Virus record (IMG/VR): IMGVR_UViG_3300035180_001115
Span: 1 to 23,115 of that record
Length of the DNA stretch: 23,115 nucleotides
Reading direction: 5' to 3' (one strand)
Source of the DNA: a virus
Part shown: positions 3,236-19,260 of the stretch, one piece after another
Layout of the letters: every line of letters begins with the position of its first letter
Position numbering within the stretch: the stretch's first letter is position 1
Made by a program: the position numbers and the translations under genes
Notes under the pieces: model-generated
What the model saw: the letters and a program-made list of their open reading frames with translations, nothing else
Told to the model about the DNA's origin: nothing
Databases searched by the model: none

Positions 3236-3820
3236 TCACAGCTTCCCCCCCGCATAGCCCATGGCAACCCCCGCGACAAAACCTTCGATCCGGCCCCGCC
3301 AGCGGGACTCCTTGACGGACTGCTTCCAGGCGTTCGTGGCCGCTTCCTGCGCCAGCCGCGCCTGCTGTTCGTGTTGATACGCCGCCTGCCACTCGCCGGA
3401 TCGGCGCTGTTCGTCCGTCAGTGCGAGCTTGAGGCCAGCGATCTGGGCGTCTTGGGCTCGTACCAATACGTCGAGGGCGGCGATGGTTTCGTCTCGATGA
3501 TCAGGGGCCACAGCCGGAACGAGGGGCGGATTCGGGTTGACCGAATCAGAAACGGGAACGCTCGGCTTGGCTGCCAGGATCTTGCGAAGCCTCGCCACTT
3601 CGGCCCGTGCCCGATCCACGTCTGCCTGGGCCGCCGCCAGGTCCGCCGCATGATCCGGGATCTGCTGGGCGCTGTTGGCATGGCTCTGTGCCTCCTGATC
3701 CTGCTGATGGGACCACTGCTCCTGGTGGGCGCCCTGGTGCTTGTGGTAGGCGTCGAGGCCGGACATCAGGCCCCAACCAATCAGCAGAGCAGCAGCGAGG
3801 GCGTAGGCGGTCTTCTTCAT
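3236..3820 (-). CDS. Inner-membrane spanin-like (Rz-like) lysis protein
   Basis: This 194-residue protein starts with a signal-anchor (MKKTAYALAAALLIGWGL, TM about 5-22), followed by a long periplasmic Gln/Ala/Arg-rich coiled coil (about 30-85), a Pro-rich break (PNPPLVPAV) and a second coiled coil (about 110-175). That layout and its position right after the holin suggest an i-spanin, which helps fuse inner and outer membranes in Gram-negative lysis. The C-terminal GFVAGVAMGYAGGKL is hydrophobic and Gly-rich, which is odd for a spanin. I found no embedded o-spanin lipoprotein in the other frames. Its start overlaps the holin stop by ATGA. Confidence 0.65.
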   Translation of the reverse strand: MKKTAYALAAALLIGWGLMSGLDAYHKHQGAHQEQWSHQQDQEAQSHANSAQQIPDHAADLAAAQADVDRARAEVARLRKILAAKPSVPVSDSVNPNPPLVPAVAPDHRDETIAALDVLVRAQDAQIAGLKLALTDEQRRSGEWQAAYQHEQQARLAQEAATNAWKQSVKESRWRGRIEGFVAGVAMGYAGGKL

Positions 3821-5024: not shown

Positions 5025-6332
5025 TCAGAAGTTGACGGCGTGGAAGGCGGCGGTCTTGCGGACGATCGGGAATTTCCGGTGGATGAAGTAGCCCGCGGCG
5101 TCCGTGGCGTGGTCCAGGTTCAACGTCTTGTCAGGCTCACCGTTCGCGGCCCAGGGCTGCTGCTCTAGGCAGTCCGCATACGTCGGACAGCGGTCCACAT
5201 TGACCTTGTAGTTCCGTTCACCCAGGGCGTTACAAAACATGCCGTTCATGGCGTTGATCCGGTCCTTCACCGGCGGGTTCGCGTCCGGCGCATCCACCTG
5301 GAAGCCCGCGGCCTTGAGCAGGGCGATGTCCGTCTCGCTGGCGTTGACCGAGCGCCGGGAGCCGCCGGACGCATCCGGATAGATACGGATCTGCCTGTCC
5401 TTTTGCCACTGCCCGTCCTTGAATGTCCAGAACCGCTCCCGGATGCGGCGAATCATGTCCGGCGTGTCGTAGGCGTTGATGATCTCCCCCACGGCCAGAG
5501 GCGCGCCGCCGCGAACCACATGCACCACCGCGGCCATCCTGCCCACATTGAAATCCATGCCGATGTAGAGGGTCTCGCCCGGGTTTTCCACGGCATCGGT
5601 GGAATTCAGGCGCCGGTCGAACTGCTGGTAGACCGTGCCCGTCTGGAGGTTGACGAATTGGCCGTTAATGTAGGCTTCAACGAGGTTGGCCGGGTATGAC
5701 TGGAGCAGGCTGGGAATGTAGTCGTCCGGCAGGTTCCGGGCGTTGTCATAGGTGCTGGCGTGAACCCGCCCGTAGAGGCCCGCGGCCTCCCTGCTGGCCC
5801 TGGGCACCTTGACGAACTGCTCATACACGAACCGGAAGCCCTCCGGCGTGGTGGTCACGTCCACGCCGTTCCTCAGTCCGGCGATGTTGTAGCGCATCCG
5901 GGCCAGGATCTTCCGCCAGGCATGGGTGGCCTTTTCCTTGGTCATGGTGTCGATCTCATCCACCTGGGCATGGCCGATCTTGAAGCCCACGATGGAGCCG
6001 GGGTCCTCCATGGACCGGCAGAGGATGGTCCCGCGATAGACCCGCCCGTTGCGGACCTCCACCTCATGGTTCGCGGTCCTCACCCGGGCCCGGAGGCCCC
6101 AGTCGTGGAATACCTCCTCCACTGTTGGGTAAAAGATGTCCCGGATCTGAGGGTAGGACGGGGCGAAGTAGCCGGTGTTGACGCCGGGATGCACCCAGAA
6201 ATGCTCCCCTTGCCCCGCGCACCCCGCCCAGGTCTTCCCAGACCCGAACCCCGCCACGAAGGCGCGGAACTTCGCCTGGAGGGCCAGGAACTCGGCCTGG
6301 GGGCGGTTCAGGGTGGGGGTGAGGGTGGTCAG
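5025..6332 (-). CDS. terL: Terminase large subunit (ATPase/nuclease), probable CTG start
   Basis: The packaging motor. Counting from the proposed CTG at 6332 (435 residues), the N-terminus reads LTTLTPTLNRPQAEFLALQ, then Walker A G28-FGSGKT34, Walker B AQVDE (D125, E126), and a C-terminal RNase-H-like nuclease with D260 (YIGMDFNVG), D320 (RIYPDASGG) and D407/D411 (LDHATDAAGYF). The first in-frame GTG (6257) begins only 2 codons before Walker A and would remove the adenine-binding LNxxQ segment, so it is very unlikely. No ATG, GTG or TTG occurs in frame between the small terminase stop and that GTG, but CTG at 6332 has GGAGG 5 nt upstream and overlaps the terS stop. The CTG start is inferred. 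Confidence 0.95.
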   Translation of the reverse strand: MTTLTPTLNRPQAEFLALQAKFRAFVAGFGSGKTWAGCAGQGEHFWVHPGVNTGYFAPSYPQIRDIFYPTVEEVFHDWGLRARVRTANHEVEVRNGRVYRGTILCRSMEDPGSIVGFKIGHAQVDEIDTMTKEKATHAWRKILARMRYNIAGLRNGVDVTTTPEGFRFVYEQFVKVPRASREAAGLYGRVHASTYDNARNLPDDYIPSLLQSYPANLVEAYINGQFVNLQTGTVYQQFDRRLNSTDAVENPGETLYIGMDFNVGRMAAVVHVVRGGAPLAVGEIINAYDTPDMIRRIRERFWTFKDGQWQKDRQIRIYPDASGGSRRSVNASETDIALLKAAGFQVDAPDANPPVKDRINAMNGMFCNALGERNYKVNVDRCPTYADCLEQQPWAANGEPDKTLNLDHATDAAGYFIHRKFPIVRKTAAFHAVNF

Positions 6333-6754
6333 GGCTTCCTCCCATCCACCACCTGGACGGTCACGGACACGGGCGTCGGCTTCTCGCCTTCGTCGCCCTC
6401 GCCGTCGTAGAGCCCGGATACCTTCCCACGGGCCATCTCCGCCGTCACGGCGGGGCCGTACTGCTTCGCGCGACGCGCCTCCTCACGAAGAGACCGTAGA
6501 GACACGAGGTGCTCCGCCAGCGTGATCCCTGACCTTTTCCTAGCATCTGAGCGTAACTGACTCAATCTTGCGGCAATCTTGGGGGTGGCGACAAGTTCAG
6601 CAGCGGTCCGGCTGACGGTCTCCGGCTTCATTCTTTCTGCGTTGTAGGCTTCCCGGTAGGCTTCAGAGGCATTCCCCGTCCGCGCCAGGTGGAGACAGAA
6701 GGCTTCCATTTTGGGTGTTAGCCCGGTAACTGGATCAGCGGCTGCCCGACTCAT
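6329..6754 (-). CDS. terS: Terminase small subunit (Terminase_2 family)
   Basis: This 141-residue protein begins with LTPKMEAFCLHLARTGNASE, AYREAYNAERMKPETVSRTA and AELVATPKIAARL, the N-terminal HTH signature of the Terminase_2 family. That domain binds the packaging initiation site. A basic helical region (RKRSGITLAEHLVSLRSLRE) and a short acidic tail (YDGEGDEGEK) before the TerL-interacting end follow. It overlaps the VRR-NUC stop by ATGA and the terL start by CTGA, so all three are translationally coupled. Confidence 0.92.
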   Translation of the reverse strand: MSRAAADPVTGLTPKMEAFCLHLARTGNASEAYREAYNAERMKPETVSRTAAELVATPKIAARLSQLRSDARKRSGITLAEHLVSLRSLREEARRAKQYGPAVTAEMARGKVSGLYDGEGDEGEKPTPVSVTVQVVDGRKP

Positions 6755-7218
6755 GCGACCTCCGTCCCGTCGCGGGGGGCGACGGCCTGTTCACCGAACT
6801 TCTCCAGCGCTTCGGCCACGGAGTGCGCGTGGAAGGCGATGTGACCTTCCGACCTGCGGGCCGCCAGGAAGTCCTTCTGGCCGAACTGGAACCTCCCGCC
6901 CGGCTTCTTGACCTCACAGAACACCCAGCGGCCATCGGGAAGCCGCCCAGTGAGGTCTGAGAAGGCCGGAGGGATCAGCAGGGCCACAGACAGGCCGAAG
7001 GGCGGCCGAGCGATTCCTAGGGCATTCAGGAGCCACTGCGGAGGGTTCGCCAGCAGGCCCTTGACCCCGGTCCCCCCCGCGTCGGTCTTGGTTAGTTTCA
7101 GCCGGTGCTTGAGAAGGAAGGCCTGCTGGATGGCCTTCTCGATGTCCCGCTCAGAGGGGGCGGCCTTCTTGCGCTTGGCGCGAACGATGAAGCCGGGGTT
7201 GGAGCCGAACATACTCAT
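6751..7218 (-). CDS. VRR-NUC domain nuclease
   Basis: This 155-residue protein has the VRR-NUC (PD-(D/E)XK superfamily) core: PPAFSDLTGRLPDGRWVFCE with VKKPGGRFQFGQKDFLAARR directly after. The putative metal ligands are the D in SDLTG and E-x-K in CEVKK; the Q in the FGQ motif is the usual downstream conserved residue. The N-terminus carries an ERDIEKAIQQAF helix also typical of the family. In phages these stand-alone nucleases sit with replication or packaging genes and probably resolve branched DNA before packaging. It lacks a good SD; its ATG overlaps the stop of the upstream repeat-bearing ORF, so coupling may supply translation. Confidence 0.88.
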   Translation of the reverse strand: MSMFGSNPGFIVRAKRKKAAPSERDIEKAIQQAFLLKHRLKLTKTDAGGTGVKGLLANPPQWLLNALGIARPPFGLSVALLIPPAFSDLTGRLPDGRWVFCEVKKPGGRFQFGQKDFLAARRSEGHIAFHAHSVAEALEKFGEQAVAPRDGTEVA

Positions 7219-7499
7219 GGGTGACCAACCTGACCAACCTCAAATCTGAGGTCGGTCGGGGAAATCGCATTGAAAAATAAGGAACTGACCAACCTGACCA
7301 ACCTGACCAACCTAAAGTCAGAAAAGGTTGTCAGGTTCGGATTATCGTCACCCTGGAGATTGGGAATTGGATGCTCCATGAAATTCCCCCTACGTGCGCG
7401 AGGCAAAAGGTTGGTCAGGTTGGTCAGATTCAACGCCCATGCGGCCCGAGGTCGGTCGGGCAGGTTGGTCAGAGGTTGGTCAGGTCGGTCAGGTGGCAC
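7215..7499 (-). CDS. Small ORF spanning the iteron array (uncertain)
   Basis: A 94-residue frame crosses the whole repeat array. It begins GTG at 7499 with GGAGGT 6 nt upstream, overlaps the primase stop by 11 nt, and ends by ATGA overlap with the VRR-NUC start. The product is low complexity where it crosses repeats (PDRPDQPLTNL, LTNLTNL, FRLVRLVRLV, VGQVGHP) because the 9-bp unit is a multiple of three and contains no stop in this frame. It could be translated mainly to couple VRR-NUC to the primase, or it may be an accidental open frame over an origin. No family is recognised. Confidence 0.4.
   Translation of the reverse strand: MPPDRPDQPLTNLPDRPRAAWALNLTNLTNLLPRARRGNFMEHPIPNLQGDDNPNLTTFSDFRLVRLVRLVSSLFFNAISPTDLRFEVGQVGHP
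7222..7491 (-). repeat. Two opposing clusters of 9-bp iterons; candidate replication origin
   Basis: TGACCAACC occurs exactly at 7222, 7231, 7286, 7295 and 7304. Its complement GGTTGGTCA occurs exactly at 7409, 7418, 7463 and 7474, with variants at 7326 (one base missing) and 7483 (GGTCGGTCA). A 13-bp repeat GAGGTCGGTCGGG occurs at 7248 and 7448, exactly 200 bp apart. The left cluster is direct, the right cluster inverted, and the middle (about 7261-7390) contains the most AT-rich pieces. It lies directly after the primase-helicase gene. Iterons plus an AT-rich segment next to the replication protein is the classic layout of an initiator-dependent origin; function here is inferred. Confidence 0.8.
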
Positions 7500-9786
7500 G
7501 GCACCACCTCCGCTCGCGGGCCTCGCCCACCCGTACCTGCTTCCACCCCTTGGCCTTGAGTAGGGCTGCCAGCTTCATGGAGGCGCCCTTGGTCTGCTGG
7601 GCAACGGGCAAGCCCATGAGGGTCATCAGCTCACCGATGGGGATACCTTCCGCCAGGGATTTCCCGTCCTTCATGTAGGCGGCCGCAGCCAATTCCACCA
7701 TGTGGTCCCATGGGTCCTCGGCAGCGAAGTCCTCGGCCTGGACCTCGCGGCGGGTGTCCATGGACGACTCGAGCCAGTGGTCCATACCGGCTCGCTCCAG
7801 GTTGAGGGCTTCCGCCCACAACTGGTCCCGCCATTCGCGGAGGCGGGAAACATTGACGGTGTCCATGACCCGTATTGGCCAGAACCGGCGGGAGCCGGTG
7901 GCGTCAGTCAGGAACTGGTCCCGGTTCGTGGTGCCCACGATGACGCAGGACCGCGGGTATATGGCCGCGGAGGCGGCGTAGGGCGCCCGGAATATGTCCC
8001 GACGGGAAGAGAGGAAGGCCTTGACCTTCTCCTGGGACTGGACGCTGGTCAGATGGTCTATCTCCCCCAGCTCTGTGATCCACGACTGGTGCAAGACCAG
8101 GTAGCCGTCCTTGTTCGTCAGGTCTATCGGGCTGTCGCCGAACCACTCGCCAGCGAGCTCAGCGAAGAAGGTGGACTTGAGGAAGCCCTGGGGCCCGGAC
8201 AGGACCAGGGTCGTGTCCAGCTTGCACCCGGGATGGAGCACCCGGCGGACCGCGCCCACGGCCCAGCGCACCAGGTACTGGGCGTTCAGGTCGTGGGGCT
8301 CGGCGTGGAGAACGACGTCGGGCACCTGGCGCAGCCGCTCCTGGCCGTCCCAGGGGGGCAACGCCTCGAGGTAGCGCCGGACCGGGTGTATGGGGTTCTG
8401 GCTGCACTGGGCCAGCAGCTTGGCCCGGACCTCATCCCTCCCGAAGTTCAGGCCGTAGGTGTCCTGCACCCACTCCTGGACCTCATCCACGAAGTGGTCG
8501 CGCTTGGGCTGGGCGTCGTGGCAGATGTCCCGGCTCATCTCATTGAGGGAGAGCCGGGCGCCCCACTGCGGGTCGAAGCGGAGGATCTTGGCGAGGTTGG
8601 CCGGCACCTTGAGAGGGGCGCCGTCCTTGCCCAGGTGAAGGCGCTGCCAGACAGGCGTGTGTTCCTCGCGCCCCACGGCGGGGGGCAGGGCCCCGTCCTC
8701 CTCATCCTCACCGGCCTCCTGCTTCGGGCGGTAGGCCTGAGCGTGGGAGCCCACCAGGGGCTTGCCGGCGGCTTCGCAGATGTCCTGGAGCCCGAGGTGC
8801 ACGTGCCCGGAGTGCGCGCACTTGAAGGACGGCCAGTCCCCCGGGGTCTGTATAACCACGGCGCTGTCATCGTCCAGGGCGTGGGTGTGCTCCGAGGCCC
8901 AGGGGCAGTGACACCGGAACTTGTAGCCTCCGCGGAAGGGCTGGGCCTTGCCCACTTTCACCCCCATGGACGCCAGCAGACCGGCCAGGTCTAGGGTTTT
9001 GAACTCCACGCGGAAGTTCCGCCACCAGTCCCGGCCCGTGCGGGGGTCGATCTTGGGGCGGGGCTTGAGCCAGGCGGGAGGCTCGGGGTCCTTGACCTCG
9101 ACGTTGGGCAGCGCGGCCTCGGGGATCGCCAAGTGCTTGCCCTTGAGCTCCCAGACCTTCACGGAGGAGGGGTCCGGGGCGCATGGCAGGAAGTTGAGCC
9201 GGGCCACGTCACGCAGAACGGGGATGTCGATCGCCCGGGACTCCTTCCATGGCAGGAAGCCCAGGTGGTCCATGGCCCATTCCGTGGCCTCGGTCCAGTA
9301 GGCCGGACTGATGGGGGCCTGCAAGGGGATCACAACGCGGAACTTGGCCAGCTGGGCGCTGTGGCTCCAGGTCGTGTAGACCACGGCCGCCAGCCCCCGG
9401 GCCTTGATTGCCTCGATCACCTGCTCGGGCTGGGCGGGCTCAGCGATGGGCACCTTGCGCGTCTTGGGCCTACCGCTCTTGTGGTTCTCACCGGGGATGG
9501 GTTCCTCGATGCAGTTGTCGAAGTCGAAGACCAGGAGGTGAATGGACTCGGCGTTGTCGCAGGCTCGGGACGTGCCGTCGAAGAAGGCCGTTCCCGAGAA
9601 CGCGGGGACCGCCTTCTTGGCGTCGGCGGGGTCCTTGCGCTTCGGGGCCCGGGTGACGGTGGTCAGGACCTCCACCAGTTCCGGCCAGGTCCCGTTGTGC
9701 CTGTCCGGCTGGTTGTCCTTGGCCCCGGCGAACTGGGACCAGGACAGCACCCGCTGGAAGGGCTGGAGGGCTGCGGCGGCACTCAT
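7489..9786 (-). CDS. Primase-helicase: AEP primase, zinc site and VirE-type helicase
   Basis: This 765-residue replication protein has three parts. Residues about 60-220 resemble an archaeo-eukaryotic primase: HLLVFDFDN (D88, D90) and YTTWSH (H142). A putative zinc site follows: RCHCPW (C292, C294) and FKCAHSGH (C323, H326, H328). The C-terminal third is a virulence-associated E (PF05272-type) P-loop ATPase: Walker A GPQGFLKST (531-539), Walker B SWITELGEID (about 568-577) and the arginine-finger motif TGSRRFWP (630-637). Such proteins prime and unwind phage or satellite origins. It is preceded by a 12-aa leader ORF with ATGA overlap and followed by the iteron array, its likely target. Confidence 0.92.
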   Translation of the reverse strand: MSAAAALQPFQRVLSWSQFAGAKDNQPDRHNGTWPELVEVLTTVTRAPKRKDPADAKKAVPAFSGTAFFDGTSRACDNAESIHLLVFDFDNCIEEPIPGENHKSGRPKTRKVPIAEPAQPEQVIEAIKARGLAAVVYTTWSHSAQLAKFRVVIPLQAPISPAYWTEATEWAMDHLGFLPWKESRAIDIPVLRDVARLNFLPCAPDPSSVKVWELKGKHLAIPEAALPNVEVKDPEPPAWLKPRPKIDPRTGRDWWRNFRVEFKTLDLAGLLASMGVKVGKAQPFRGGYKFRCHCPWASEHTHALDDDSAVVIQTPGDWPSFKCAHSGHVHLGLQDICEAAGKPLVGSHAQAYRPKQEAGEDEEDGALPPAVGREEHTPVWQRLHLGKDGAPLKVPANLAKILRFDPQWGARLSLNEMSRDICHDAQPKRDHFVDEVQEWVQDTYGLNFGRDEVRAKLLAQCSQNPIHPVRRYLEALPPWDGQERLRQVPDVVLHAEPHDLNAQYLVRWAVGAVRRVLHPGCKLDTTLVLSGPQGFLKSTFFAELAGEWFGDSPIDLTNKDGYLVLHQSWITELGEIDHLTSVQSQEKVKAFLSSRRDIFRAPYAASAAIYPRSCVIVGTTNRDQFLTDATGSRRFWPIRVMDTVNVSRLREWRDQLWAEALNLERAGMDHWLESSMDTRREVQAEDFAAEDPWDHMVELAAAAYMKDGKSLAEGIPIGELMTLMGLPVAQQTKGASMKLAALLKAKGWKQVRVGEARERRWCRAT

Positions 9787-9847: not shown

Positions 9848-10348
9848 TCACGAGGCCAGCCCGCCACGGCTGGCCTTTTCACTGTTGGAATTCAGCAGTT
9901 CATCAATCAGCGCCCGCATCCCTAGCAGCTCGGGGCGCAGCTCGCGCAGCTCGTGTTCCGTGATCTCCACGCCGCCCTCGGAGTCCGGAGCCATGGCCTG
10001 GATCAGGTGGGCGATCGCCACGCCGCTCTTGCGGGACAGCAGGGAGGCCAGGACCGTGTGGGTCCGGGCGTGGCGGGTGTCGTGGCCCGGCCGCATCGCG
10101 GCCAGGGCATCCCAGAGGATGGAATTCCCCGTGGCCCGCTCGAGGGCCGGGTAGAGGTGGGCCGGTAGCATGTCGGGGTCGTCCGGGTTGCGGTATTTGG
10201 ACAACTGGCCGGGGCTGCACTTCAGGGCGTATTCCGCGACCCACGAGGCGGCGATCCCGTCCTCCCGCTTCGCCAGGTCCAGGGATTCCCCCAACGCCTC
10301 GGAAAGGGCAACGGCTTGCGGGTGGAGTTGCCTGGATTTGCACATCAT
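9848..10348 (-). CDS. CII/CP76-like phage regulatory protein
   Basis: This 166-residue protein resembles the phage CII-like/CP76 regulator group. A helical N-terminus is followed by SPGQLSKYRNPDDPDMLPAH and LYPALERATGNSILWDALAA (about 45-90), the characteristic HTH with 'N-P-D-D-P' and 'ATGN' elements. It ends in helices with ELRPELLGMRALIDELLN. In other phages such proteins decide lysis or lysogeny, or activate early genes. Here it lies between the Cro-like gene and the primase, on the same strand, as the second gene of the lytic operon. The SD is weak; ATG at 10348 or the next codon are equally possible. Confidence 0.75.
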   Translation of the reverse strand: MMCKSRQLHPQAVALSEALGESLDLAKREDGIAASWVAEYALKCSPGQLSKYRNPDDPDMLPAHLYPALERATGNSILWDALAAMRPGHDTRHARTHTVLASLLSRKSGVAIAHLIQAMAPDSEGGVEITEHELRELRPELLGMRALIDELLNSNSEKASRGGLAS

Positions 10349-10357
10349 GCTTTACCC

Positions 10358-10501
10358 ATGAAGGTGATCCCCGAACTGATCCCGCTCGAAGCCCAGGCGA
10401 TGTTTGCGCCCACGCCAGAGTGGGAGGCGGCGGCCAGACAGACGCTGGCGGTGGAGAGGGCCCGTCCTCATGCGGCGGCGGGGGGGGAGGAGGAGGAATG
10501 A
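10358..10501 (+). CDS. Small acidic ORF in the regulator gap (doubtful)
   Basis: A 47-residue frame, MKVIPELIPLEAQAMFAPTP then EWEAAARQTLAVERA and an EEEE tail, lies in the 119-nt gap between the CII-like and Cro-like genes but on the opposite strand. It overlaps the 3' end of the Cro-like gene by 34 nt. No SD is visible. The non-low-complexity first half looks protein-like, so it is kept at low confidence. Confidence 0.25.
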   Translation: MKVIPELIPLEAQAMFAPTPEWEAAARQTLAVERARPHAAAGGEEEE

Positions 10502-10695
10502 TCAGGGAGACCCATCAACACGGCCGCCTTGAGCGCGCCCTTCGAGGCGGCTTCCAGGCGAAGTGCAAGGGGAAGGCGAGGCTTGATCTTCCCGGAAAGA
10601 ATCCGGCTCATGTGCCCATCACCGATCCCAACCTTCCTAGCGAGGGACCTTTGCGTCAGGCCAGCGGCCCGAAGGGAGTCTTGGAGAACGCTCAT
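10468..10695 (-). CDS. Cro-like HTH (XRE) repressor
   Basis: This 75-residue protein is almost entirely one Cro/CI-type helix-turn-helix: LQDSLRAAGLTQRSLARKVG then IGDGHMSRILSGKIKPRLPL and ALRLEAASKG. The ATG at 10695 is chosen over a longer frame because GAGGG lies just upstream and the extension would read through the operator. It is divergent from the CI-like gene and is the first gene of the leftward operon, so it most likely acts as Cro, shutting off the repressor promoter and tuning early lytic transcription. An operator (10705-10722) lies in its promoter. Confidence 0.82.
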   Translation of the reverse strand: MSVLQDSLRAAGLTQRSLARKVGIGDGHMSRILSGKIKPRLPLALRLEAASKGALKAAVLMGLPDHSSSSPPAAA

Positions 10696-10702
10696 GGCCC
10701 TC

Positions 10703-10731
10703 AGTTTGCAGCGCCAATGCAACCAAGTCAA
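10703..10731 (-). promoter_or_regulatory. Leftward (cro) promoter with operator O1
   Basis: On the minus strand, TTGACT (10731-10726) and CAAACT (10708-10703) are 17 nt apart. The -35 is good and the -10 is weak. Within the spacer and -10 lies the symmetric operator TTTGCA-GCGCCA-ATGCAA (plus strand 10705-10722). A repressor bound there would block RNA polymerase directly. Confidence 0.6.
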
Positions 10732-10735
10732 GGTG

Positions 10736-10756
10736 GTGCAAGCGTGAAATTTGCAC
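10736..10756 (+). promoter_or_regulatory. Second operator-like inverted repeat O2
   Basis: GTGCAA (10736-10741) and TTGCAC (10751-10756) form an inverted repeat with a 9-nt centre and the same TTGCA/TGCAA half-sites as O1. It lies 13 nt from O1, immediately before the CI-like coding region, so it could mediate repressor autoregulation. The wider spacing makes it a weaker match. Confidence 0.45.
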
Positions 10757-10776
10757 CCATGCGGCAAGATCTAGCC

Positions 10777-11924: not shown

Positions 11925-11952
11925 TTGCATCTTTGCAGTTTCGATGCAAACT
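11925..11952 (+). promoter_or_regulatory. Rightward early promoter with operator O3
   Basis: TTGCAT (11925-11930) and CAAACT (11947-11952) are 16 nt apart and embed TTTGCA-GTTTCG-ATGCAA (11932-11949), the same 6-6-6 operator as O1. The -10 hexamer is identical to that of the cro promoter and likewise overlaps the operator's right half. It would drive the operon from the leader ORF through the integrase. Confidence 0.55.
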
Positions 11953-12001
11953 GGTCCTGTCGCACTTCTCATCCCCCCCCCCAATCGGAAGGAGAATGTC
12001 T

Positions 12002-12079
12002 ATGCCGAAAATCGTGAAGTTCCAGCCGCCGAAGCCCTCCGGCCCCAAGGCCCCCGCGCCGATTCGGGTGGCGGCATGA
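12002..12079 (+). CDS. 25-aa Pro/Lys-rich leader ORF
   Basis: The frame starts MPKIVKFQPPKPSGPKAPAP and ends IRVAA. AAGGAG lies 8 nt before the ATG, the strongest SD in this stretch, and the TGA overlaps the pentapeptide ATG (GCATGA). It is the first gene after the rightward promoter. It may be a true small basic protein or only a coupling leader. Confidence 0.6.
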   Translation: MPKIVKFQPPKPSGPKAPAPIRVAA

Positions 12080-12786
12080 CCCCCTCCACCATCTCCGTGA
12101 CACCCCACGCCGGTGCGGACCTCGCAGGCGCAAAACTCGTCAGGGCGGACCTGTATGGGACGGACCTATCTGGGGCAGATCTCTCCAGAGCGGATCTCTC
12201 CGGTGCAGACCTCGCCGAGGCAGATCTCGCCGGTGCTGACCTCTCCAAGGCAAACATCGCCGGAGCGAACCTCCACGGCTCAGACATCTGCGGTGCGAAC
12301 CTTGTCCGAGCGAACCTCGCCGTGACAAACCTCGCCGAAGCGAACCTCTCCGGTGCAAAGCTCGTCAGGGCGGACCTGTACGGTGCGGATCTCTCCGGGG
12401 CAGACCTCTCCGGGGCGTACCTCTACGAAGCAAACCTCGCCGAGGCGGATCTCGCCGGTGCAAATCTCGCCGGTGCGGACCTCGCCAGGGCGAAACTCTA
12501 CGGGGCGAGATACGGCGACCTGAAGCTAGCCGCAGTCGTGGTCATGACGGGCCTCTACAGGTACCAGTGCTGGGCCGCGGTCACCACTGACGGCGTCCCC
12601 TACGTGCGCATGGGGTGTTTCTGGCATTCCGTTGACGAGTGGGATGCCATCGGAATCCGAACGAGCAACACTTCCGAGTTCCCCGATGACGGCAGCGCGG
12701 AATCTGAGGAGCGTGCGGCGGCCTTTGAGCTTACGAGGGCCAAGGCACTCCGTATGGCTGAGGCACACAAGAAGGAGGTGTCATGA
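12076..12786 (+). CDS. Pentapeptide-repeat protein with conserved C-terminal domain
   Basis: This 236-residue protein has an 11-residue N-terminus, then about 26 uninterrupted pentapeptides of the A(D/N)LxG type (about 12-141; for example AGADL, VRADL, YGADL), predicted to form a right-handed quadrilateral beta-helix. Residues about 142-236 are a separate domain with YRYQCWAAVTTDGVPYVRMG, CFWHSVDEW and SEFPDDGS, which I recall in other phage pentapeptide proteins. Pentapeptide helices can mimic DNA (gyrase protection by Qnr/MfpA), so a role against host topoisomerase or nucleases is possible but not shown. The ATG at 12076 is preferred to 11944, which lies inside the operator. It is first in the early operon. 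Confidence 0.85.
   Translation: MTPSTISVTPHAGADLAGAKLVRADLYGTDLSGADLSRADLSGADLAEADLAGADLSKANIAGANLHGSDICGANLVRANLAVTNLAEANLSGAKLVRADLYGADLSGADLSGAYLYEANLAEADLAGANLAGADLARAKLYGARYGDLKLAAVVVMTGLYRYQCWAAVTTDGVPYVRMGCFWHSVDEWDAIGIRTSNTSEFPDDGSAESEERAAAFELTRAKALRMAEAHKKEVS
12130..12380 (+). repeat. Internal DNA duplication in the pentapeptide gene
   Basis: A 26-nt block at 12130-12155 recurs at 12355-12380 with one mismatch, including the exact 20-mer CTCGTCAGGGCGGACCTGTA. The offset is 225 bp, exactly 15 pentapeptides, and the following codons (YG-DLSGADLS) also match. This suggests expansion by in-frame duplication. Confidence 0.7.
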
Positions 12787-18008: not shown

Positions 18009-18256
18009 TGGAGATCCTCACACAACAAGAACTCCAGATCCGCCTCCGGGCCGAGGGGCTGCCTCTAGGAACCCCCAGCATCCACGCCTGCATCGAGGCC
18101 GGGATGCCCGTGGTGAGAATCCCGGGCCACAAGAAGCCCCGGTTCCACTGGCCATCCTGCTGGGCCTGGCTCATCGCGTCCCGCGAACTGGATCCGCTGG
18201 CCCTTGCGACCAGGGATAGACTATTCCACAGGAACTCCCGGAGGACCACCGCTTGA
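18008..18256 (+). CDS. Candidate excisionase / recombination directionality factor
   Basis: This 82-residue protein looks like a small winged-helix DNA-binding protein: EILTQQELQIRLRAEGLPLG, IHACIEAGMPVVRIPGHKKP, RFHWPSCWAWLIASRE. The pattern 'helix-turn-helix, then GMPVVRI-x-KPRFHW' resembles AlpA/MerR-like excisionases. It lies directly upstream of the integrase with a 4-nt TTGA overlap, where phage xis genes usually sit, so co-expression for excision is likely. The call is from layout and context. Confidence 0.6.
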   Translation: MEILTQQELQIRLRAEGLPLGTPSIHACIEAGMPVVRIPGHKKPRFHWPSCWAWLIASRELDPLALATRDRLFHRNSRRTTA

Positions 18257-19260
18257 CCCGCTGGCTCCACAAGCGAGGCCGGTTCTACCACTACCGATTC
18301 AAGGTGGGCGGCCTGGAATACAGTGGCACCACGGAAGCCACGGATCTGGCGACGGCCAAGGTTGTCCTAGAGCAGGTGCGCCGGGAAACCATCCTCGGGG
18401 ACCACGGGATGCGGAAGGCCCCCACGCTCGGGGCCGTGGCGGGTGAGTGGCTGGGCACCCGCGGCAAGTCGGCATCCAAGGGTCACCGCAGGGCGGCAGA
18501 GCAGAGCCTGGAGGCACTCGGGAGCCTCGGCAAGCTGCCGCTGGACCGAATCACCACGCCCATCGTCCAGTCGTGGCAGGCCGCCTATCTACAGGGCCAC
18601 AGCGCGGCATCTGCGAACCTCGTCCTACGCTACCTCAAGCTATGGATGCGCTGGGCCATGGGCCAGAAACTCATCCGGGAGATGCCCTACTCCGTCCGGC
18701 CCGAGAAACAGCAGGAGCGCCCGCGCCCCGTGGTAGAGGATGTGGACGGGTTCCTCGCCAGGGTGGACGCCGGGGCCCGGAACCCGCAGGTTCCCGCCGC
18801 GGTCCGCTTCGCCATGATGCTGGGGCTCCGGGAGTCGGAAGTCCTCCAAGCCCGCTGGGAATGGCTGAAGGACGGATCCTACACCGTGGCCGGCCGCACC
18901 AAGAGCCGGAAGGTCCGGACCGTGCCTGTGCCAGAACCCTTGCGGGTGGCCCTGGTCCTCATGCTGGCGGCCCAACAGCACGGCCCGGCACAGGTCCCAC
19001 GGCTCGGCCTGATGTTCCCAGGCCGGGATGGGCGGCCCCACCGCCAGGGATGGCTACGGCAGGCCCTCCAGCGCGGTGGGGTAGGGGGCCTGGGGATGCA
19101 CCGCCTACGGGCCACCTTCGCCACGCTGCACCTCCGCAAGGGGACGCCACTGAAAGAGGTCCAGGAGATGATGGGCCATGGTGATGCCCGGACGACCCTG
19201 CTCTACCAGGAGGGCAGCCAGGGCGAGAAGCGGAAGTACCAGGATGCGCTGTGGGCGTGA
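18253..19260 (+). CDS. int: Tyrosine recombinase (phage integrase)
   Basis: This 335-residue protein starts at TTG 18253. It has an N-terminal arm-type region (WLHKRGRFYHYRFKVGG), a SAM-like core-binding domain (about 58-145) and a catalytic domain with all expected residues: R193 (GLRESEV), K217 on the beta-hairpin (GRTKSRK), H283 and R286 (MHRLR), H309 (MMGHGD) and the nucleophile Y318 (TLLYQEG). It acts on the tRNA-Thr attachment site located 70 nt downstream. It is the last gene of the rightward operon. Confidence 0.95.
   Translation: MTRWLHKRGRFYHYRFKVGGLEYSGTTEATDLATAKVVLEQVRRETILGDHGMRKAPTLGAVAGEWLGTRGKSASKGHRRAAEQSLEALGSLGKLPLDRITTPIVQSWQAAYLQGHSAASANLVLRYLKLWMRWAMGQKLIREMPYSVRPEKQQERPRPVVEDVDGFLARVDAGARNPQVPAAVRFAMMLGLRESEVLQARWEWLKDGSYTVAGRTKSRKVRTVPVPEPLRVALVLMLAAQQHGPAQVPRLGLMFPGRDGRPHRQGWLRQALQRGGVGGLGMHRLRATFATLHLRKGTPLKEVQEMMGHGDARTTLLYQEGSQGEKRKYQDALWA

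Follow-up and report, generated by a model that had tools for sequence, protein, structure and literature searches.

What does a cluster of short, facing DNA repeats do when it sits at the end of the VapE-family primase-helicase gene of a phage? The virus record analysed here, referred to as the window, is 23,115 bases long and apparently belongs to a temperate tailed phage, and its minus strand carries a run of genes consisting of VapE, a small nuclease, terS and terL with the repeat array lying between VapE and the nuclease gene. A first-pass annotation had proposed opposing repeat clusters at 7222-7491 as a candidate iteron origin and both its repeat counts and its coordinates were right. 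The unit TGACCAACC is found in five exact copies on the plus strand (7222, 7231, 7286, 7295 and 7304) and four on the minus strand (7409, 7418, 7463 and 7474), with a further copy carrying one mismatch at 7483-7491 (minus strand) and several degenerate reverse copies within the array. The exact 13-bp direct repeat that had been pointed out, GAGGTCGGTCGGG, is present at 7248-7260 and 7448-7460, 200 bp apart, and each copy contains a degenerate unit GGTCGGTC. The array does directly follow the primase-helicase gene, to the extent that the first repeat unit opens with the TGA stop codon of VapE, and the stretch between the two halves is AT-richer than the remaining 3' flank as had been described (Table 1). 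The same sharing of TGA between the VapE stop and the start of the first unit is seen in three relatives (L005, L042 and L102). Within 7258-7285, which separates the distal triple from the outer pair, about 20 bp of AT-rich sequence are the same in L042 and may form a second site for melting or for a protein.

Table 1 Features of the repeat array and of the surrounding genes in the window
Feature	Position	Strand	Details
Gene-proximal outer block	7450..7491	-	Units at 7483-7491 (1 mismatch, VapE stop), 7474-7482 and 7463-7471; degenerate GACCGACC at 7450-7457
Spacer between outer and inner blocks	7427..7449		23 bp
Inner gene-proximal pair of exact units	7409..7426	-	9-bp step
AT-richer centre, proposed melting region	7313..7408		96 bp; AT 0.50 vs 0.38 in the remaining 3' flank
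Inner distal triple of exact units	7286..7312	+	9-bp step; orientation opposite to the gene-proximal pair
Spacer with AT-rich stretch	7258..7285		28 bp; stretch identical in the closest relative L042 (alignment)
Distal outer inverted pair	7222..7257		GACCGACC on - (7250-7257) facing two exact + units (7222-7239)
VapE-family primase-helicase, proposed initiator and self-loading helicase	7489..9786	-	765 aa; Pfam PF05272, E 3e-66
VapE C-terminal part with winged helix, proposed iteron-reading domain	7492..7713	-	Model residues 304-375 = VapE 692-763
Small nuclease, Holliday-junction-resolvase-like, outside the origin	6751..7218	-	PHROG 5702, E 7e-9; presumably VRR-NUC-like
CII-like regulator	9848-10348
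HTH regulator	10468-10767
Integrase	18253-19260

Allowing at most one mismatch, TGACCAACC has 17 matches in the window compared with a mean of 5.76 and a maximum of 14 over 100 shuffles. In a test blind to the unit, one 7-mer occurs nine times in the 615 bp from the end of VapE and no 7-mer exceeded four copies in 200 dinucleotide shuffles. A chance origin of the repeats is ruled out by these shuffles. A full scan of the window placed its strongest convergent repeat window at 7151-7550.

The neighbouring protein was compared with known helicases by sequence, profile and fold. The window VapE matches a DNA helicase family in PHROG (E 7.2e-81) and the structure 7pds in the PDB (phmmer E 1.5e-36, profile search E 3.1e-75). 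An AF2 model of residues 389-765 built from a 46-row alignment reached a pLDDT of 94.1 and had as its best structural match PriRep1 with double-stranded DNA (7pds_A; Z 31.1, rmsd 4.9, 373 of 377 residues), a protein which we take to come from a SaPI, followed by the C-terminal region of NrS-1 (Z 15) and the SaPI5 primase-helicase (Z 13). The C-terminal secondary structure elements of the model are H304-318, H329-335, H345-357, E360-365 and E370-375, an order that reads as a predicted winged helix at the end of VapE. Only the helicase core and this C-terminal domain are common to the seven array-bearing VapE proteins compared, and a separate primase-like gene is present upstream in L012 and L036. 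Elsewhere in the window an open frame on the plus strand (11944-12786) encodes pentapeptide-like repeats (ADLSGADL...), and a frame with YGNARVYGDA-type repeats is found in L005 (1768-2562). The packaging genes are mosaic, with terS 30% alike between window 5025-6754 and L005 8107-10039 and terL giving no match at E 0.01.

The array is kept beside VapE among relatives. In the nearest viral relative, L005, whose VapE is 69% identical, an array lies at the matching place with TGAGC in place of TGACC in 12 of 12 marked copies, and the closest VapE of all (85% identical) is that of L042, a Holophagaceae MAG. Arrays were retained next to VapE proteins 29-85% identical to that of the window, even where the unit had changed, which bears out the expectation of the first-pass annotation that related phages would conserve the repeats with drifted spacers. 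Other carriers include a proteobacterial MAG (L036) and Bradyrhizobium elkanii (L079).

In order to start from the repeats rather than from the gene, genome and viral contigs were scanned for three tandem GASCRACC units, giving 76 and 6 stretches respectively, and a set of 97 loci was assembled, nearly all found by the repeat pattern and with the copies of the window (L001-L004) dropped. A VapE HMM matched eight of these loci (seven distinct contigs), and in every one of the eight VapE is directly followed on its 3' side by a cluster with two or more copies per orientation. Conversely seven of the eight distinct contigs with such a two-orientation cluster carry VapE, the exception being L100, and in the stretches examined of these loci no VapE match accompanied clusters whose copies all pointed one way or that had a lone copy pointing the other. 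Tandem GASCRACC runs in one orientation occur in many bacterial genomes (L047, L050, L066 and others), with no VapE match in the stretches examined. The exception, L100, is a viral contig on which TGACCGACC units of both orientations make up a large array at 2069-2602 and VapE has no match; part of another type of DNA primase (PHROG 1156) is encoded about 3 kb from the array, and the TGACCGACC unit may serve another initiator family.

A second set was gathered from the gene by fetching further loci by VapE protein and adding ten annotated phages picked from a protein search, the fetch taking the best 80 of 590, 590 and 578 confirmed loci in three scans. After dropping L181-L186, loci without a VapE match and loci with less than 300 bp after VapE, 258 of 348 loci remained in 90 clusters at 80% identity (the largest with 72 loci), overlapping fetches of one contig being merged by the clustering, and one representative per cluster was tested. 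As the fetching alignments (A1, A2 and A3) were seeded with array-bearing VapE proteins the sample is not neutral and leans towards their kin. Within about 600 bp 3' of VapE the 7-mer count exceeded that of all 200 dinucleotide shuffles in 51 of these 90 clusters, or in 47 of 86 once the four representatives already known to carry repeats are set aside, and a p of 0.05 was reached by 60 of the 90. Every one of the 51 significant arrays has units in both orientations, and the convergent arrangement that the first-pass annotation had thought unusual is therefore not so among VapE-linked arrays. Counting against an origin, no significant array lies within 600 bp at the strict cut-off in the other 39 clusters; in seven of these, repeats pointing both ways occur between -279 and +1985 bp relative to the end of the gene. 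Of the ten annotated phages, five are significant themselves, two through the representative of their cluster (L188 and L189) and three not (L191, L194 and L195). In an earlier set of 46 clusters (without L181-L186 and without L097 and L101, which are on the same contig as L005) a score of at least 5 was reached by 28 of 46 3' flanks, the corresponding numbers being 4 of 41 for stretches within the gene and 5 of 38 for stretches 1.5-2.1 kb away.

Scanning 89 of the 90 representatives without regard to position (one locus shorter than 4000 bp was left out) placed the best repeat window only 0-700 bp 3' of VapE in 52 loci where 8.1 were expected, and 44 of the 54 loci with a best score of at least 6 had that window in the first 700 bp. 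Of the other ten, seven have the two-orientation repeats between -279 and +1985 bp noted above, and in L005, L112 and L291 a stronger repeat elsewhere outranks the array, in two of the three with units in one direction only. In L118 and L148 the strongest repeat window falls within the VapE open frame itself, some 200-280 bp short of its end, as if the tail of the gene ran through its own origin. In the window and in four of four complete phage genomes, the latter chosen after the array was seen in them or in their cluster, VapE is followed on its 3' side by the top repeat window of the whole record; in Pseudomonas U5 one small gene intervenes.

The repeat unit changes between lineages, taking the forms TGACCAACC, TGAGCAACC (the L005-type unit), TGAGAGACC, TGCCCAACC, TGTCCCAC, TGTCACCA and GCTACACC, many of which end in ACC(T). 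The geometry is kept. A 9-bp tandem step is the commonest, with 53 entries (locus plus orientation) and 19 for each of the next steps. Centres between convergent blocks were measured in 45 of the 51 significant arrays and have a median length of 81 bp; they were AT-richer in 41 of the 45 (means 0.51 vs 0.38, Wilcoxon p 5e-8) and not in the other four. In several arrays an outer inverted pair spaced 18-22 bp was seen by eye about 36 bp from the inner block.

Repeat identity varies together with the end of the VapE protein. Across the 51 arrays the distance between repeats correlates with the distance between C-terminal parts when ATPase distance is controlled (partial correlation 0.25, p 0.0005), the converse value for repeat against ATPase with the C-terminal part controlled being 0.077 (p 0.05), in Mantel permutations that correct for shared ancestry in part only. 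For the 1183 pairs whose ATPase parts are distant, repeat and C-terminal part show a raw correlation of only 0.14. Repeat similarity thus appears to follow the C-terminal winged helix more than the ATPase domain, which fits a C-terminal reader of the repeats. A one-residue code was looked at in L005, L102, L103 and L079, in which an Arg two residues after the wing GW goes with TGAG units and Gln, Lys, His or Ser at that position with TGAC or TGCC units. Judged by eye this code is broken by L280, which has Cys, and by TGTCCCAC-type arrays, which also have Arg, and it is a lead only.

A phage operator would also place repeats in an intergenic gap within an operon, and this phage encodes both HTH and CII-like regulators, so that a Cro/CII-like protein, or VapE acting as an autoregulator, might use the array to control late transcription. 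We regard this as very improbable: the array tracks VapE and its repeat identity follows the VapE C-terminal domain, and an operator does not require an AT-rich centre flanked by convergent blocks. A search of 6700-8000 gave no sigma-70-like promoter, a weak argument given that only 0.2 would be expected by chance. A structural role in RNA, in which a long stem-loop would terminate, attenuate or stabilise the VapE transcript, draws on the folding of the transcribed strand at -124.7 kcal/mol (z -7.4), but such folding is expected of any inverted-repeat array and the numbers of copies per side are often very unequal (9 and 2 or 3 and 9, for example), which a stem does not need. A terminator-like site was looked for and not found and no Rfam family reached its gathering score, the best being SurC at 23.4 of 80, and we consider this the least probable of the alternatives. 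One plus-strand frame stays open, or almost open, across the array in the ten loci examined. A protein-coding repeat of the (LTN)n kind was rejected as substitutions show no concentration at third positions, the counts at codon positions 1/2/3 being 19/11/16 (window vs L042) and 10/10/8 (L012 vs L036) in the array and 33/21/91 and 24/21/89 in the VapE gene controls. Since array substitutions are spread over the codon positions while VapE shows a third-position bias, the array is non-coding.

Packaging is a further alternative, in which the array would be a cos or pac site recognised by the small terminase subunit in the manner of lambda cosB. The array is about 0.5 kb from terS in the window and L005 and about 0.2 kb in L012 and L079, and in Synechococcus phage S-LBS1 an array at the right end abuts a left-end terS if the record is circular. 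Because terS lies within about 0.6 kb in the window, L005, L012 and L079, position alone does not argue against a packaging site in this group. The annotated phages do. Six of them have both array and terminase in the stretches fetched (Haddon left out), and in five of the six 1.6-7 kb and two or more genes separate the array from the annotated terminase: about 4.9 kb in C. difficile phiCDKH02, 4.5 kb in Corynebacterium IME1320, 7 kb (terL) in Marinobacter PS3, 2.5 kb in S. aureus StauST398-2 and 1.6 kb in Pseudomonas U5. The array is moreover kept in both the window and L005 despite terL proteins that give no match to each other at E 0.01, and in L042 the repeat unit of the window occurs together with an L005-like terS (52%). 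On the evidence of the annotated phages a packaging site was rejected as the main reading, although terS is near in the group of the window and perhaps in S-LBS1, and we consider it very improbable. Taking linkage to VapE, convergence and the AT-richer centre together, an iteron origin as first proposed is the best explanation of the array; judged from the sequence comparisons the repeats are most likely the start site of phage DNA copying, bound by the adjacent helicase.

The first-pass annotation could not assign the array to a described origin type, and here such a type was found in the SaPI-type origin that directly follows the gene of a self-loading helicase. In SaPI origins iterons flank an AT-rich region. 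The closest solved structure to the window VapE in both sequence and fold is PriRep1 (7pds), and another related structure is that of the SaPI5 primase-helicase (7ola). According to PMC7581432, citing Ubeda 2007, the Rep helicases of SaPIs bind iterons immediately downstream of their own gene, a layout shared by the window in that a helicase with a C-terminal DNA-binding domain, predicted in our case, is followed directly by several short repeats. The same source describes a putative SCC origin in which direct repeats downstream of the SCCmec Cch2 helicase gene are bound by the isolated C-terminal domain; it differs in that only three iterons are reported and in that the helicase belongs to the Primase_Cterm/D5_N branch and not to VapE. 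For the window, AAA+ helicase kinship to SaPI Rep was found by sequence, profile and fold, and the predicted winged helix and its co-variation with the unit would fit a further feature of such replicons, a C-terminal domain that reads the repeats. The window differs from SaPIs in being a temperate tailed phage and not a satellite, with a unit TGACCAACC that has strongly diversified among relatives. We conclude that the window array is probably a phage origin of the known SaPI/SCC kind, found here in tailed phages with a strongly diversified word. Lambda-type origins offer a more distant parallel. In lambda the phage-coded initiator O binds iterons near an AT-rich region, and in the window such binding is proposed. 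The lambda iterons form part of the coding sequence of the initiator, and O acts as a loader and not as a helicase, whereas the array of the window shares with its gene only the stop codon and has a VapE helicase as its neighbour.

How would such an origin work? We hold it highly probable that the array is the vegetative replication origin of the phage, bound by VapE through its C-terminal winged helix, loading two hexamers and melting at its centre. The winged helix would bind the 9-bp units, and oppositely oriented units on two sides would load two oppositely directed helicase hexamers. The AT-richer centre of about 80-100 bp would then melt and replication would start there. GC skew lends this reading no clear support and does not contradict it: in the window its extremes are at 3396 and 10890, away from the array. 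In the four complete phages the skew follows gene direction, since whichever extreme falls closest to the array, at a distance of 4 kb in one genome, is a minimum where VapE is on the plus strand and a maximum where it is on the minus strand.

Matches to the window VapE were found in 676 of 50,697 phage records. In ten annotated phage records the gene appears as 'DNA primase', 'DNA helicase', 'putative helicase', 'primase and polymerase' or 'virulence-associated', and no origin is annotated in the stretches examined. Among the literature matches listed (titles and the starts of abstracts) no description of a VapE-linked phage origin was found, and the main text of the Marinobacter PS3 paper (PMC8424206) makes no mention of origin, iteron or repeat. 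The layout would allow an origin to be called from sequence, as convergent 9-bp repeats 3' of vapE, and the natural variation of the unit makes the specificity of the C-terminal domain directly testable by asking which helicase fires which origin. More tentatively, and with slightly more doubt than confidence, we suggest that VapE phages share one origin design with an evolving word, in which the winged helix changes together with the unit while the geometry stays fixed (9-bp step, convergent blocks, an AT-rich centre of about 80 bp and outer units about 36 bp away). If true, this shared design would amount to a readable protein-DNA code and to many mutually orthogonal origin-helicase pairs in phages of several bacterial phyla.
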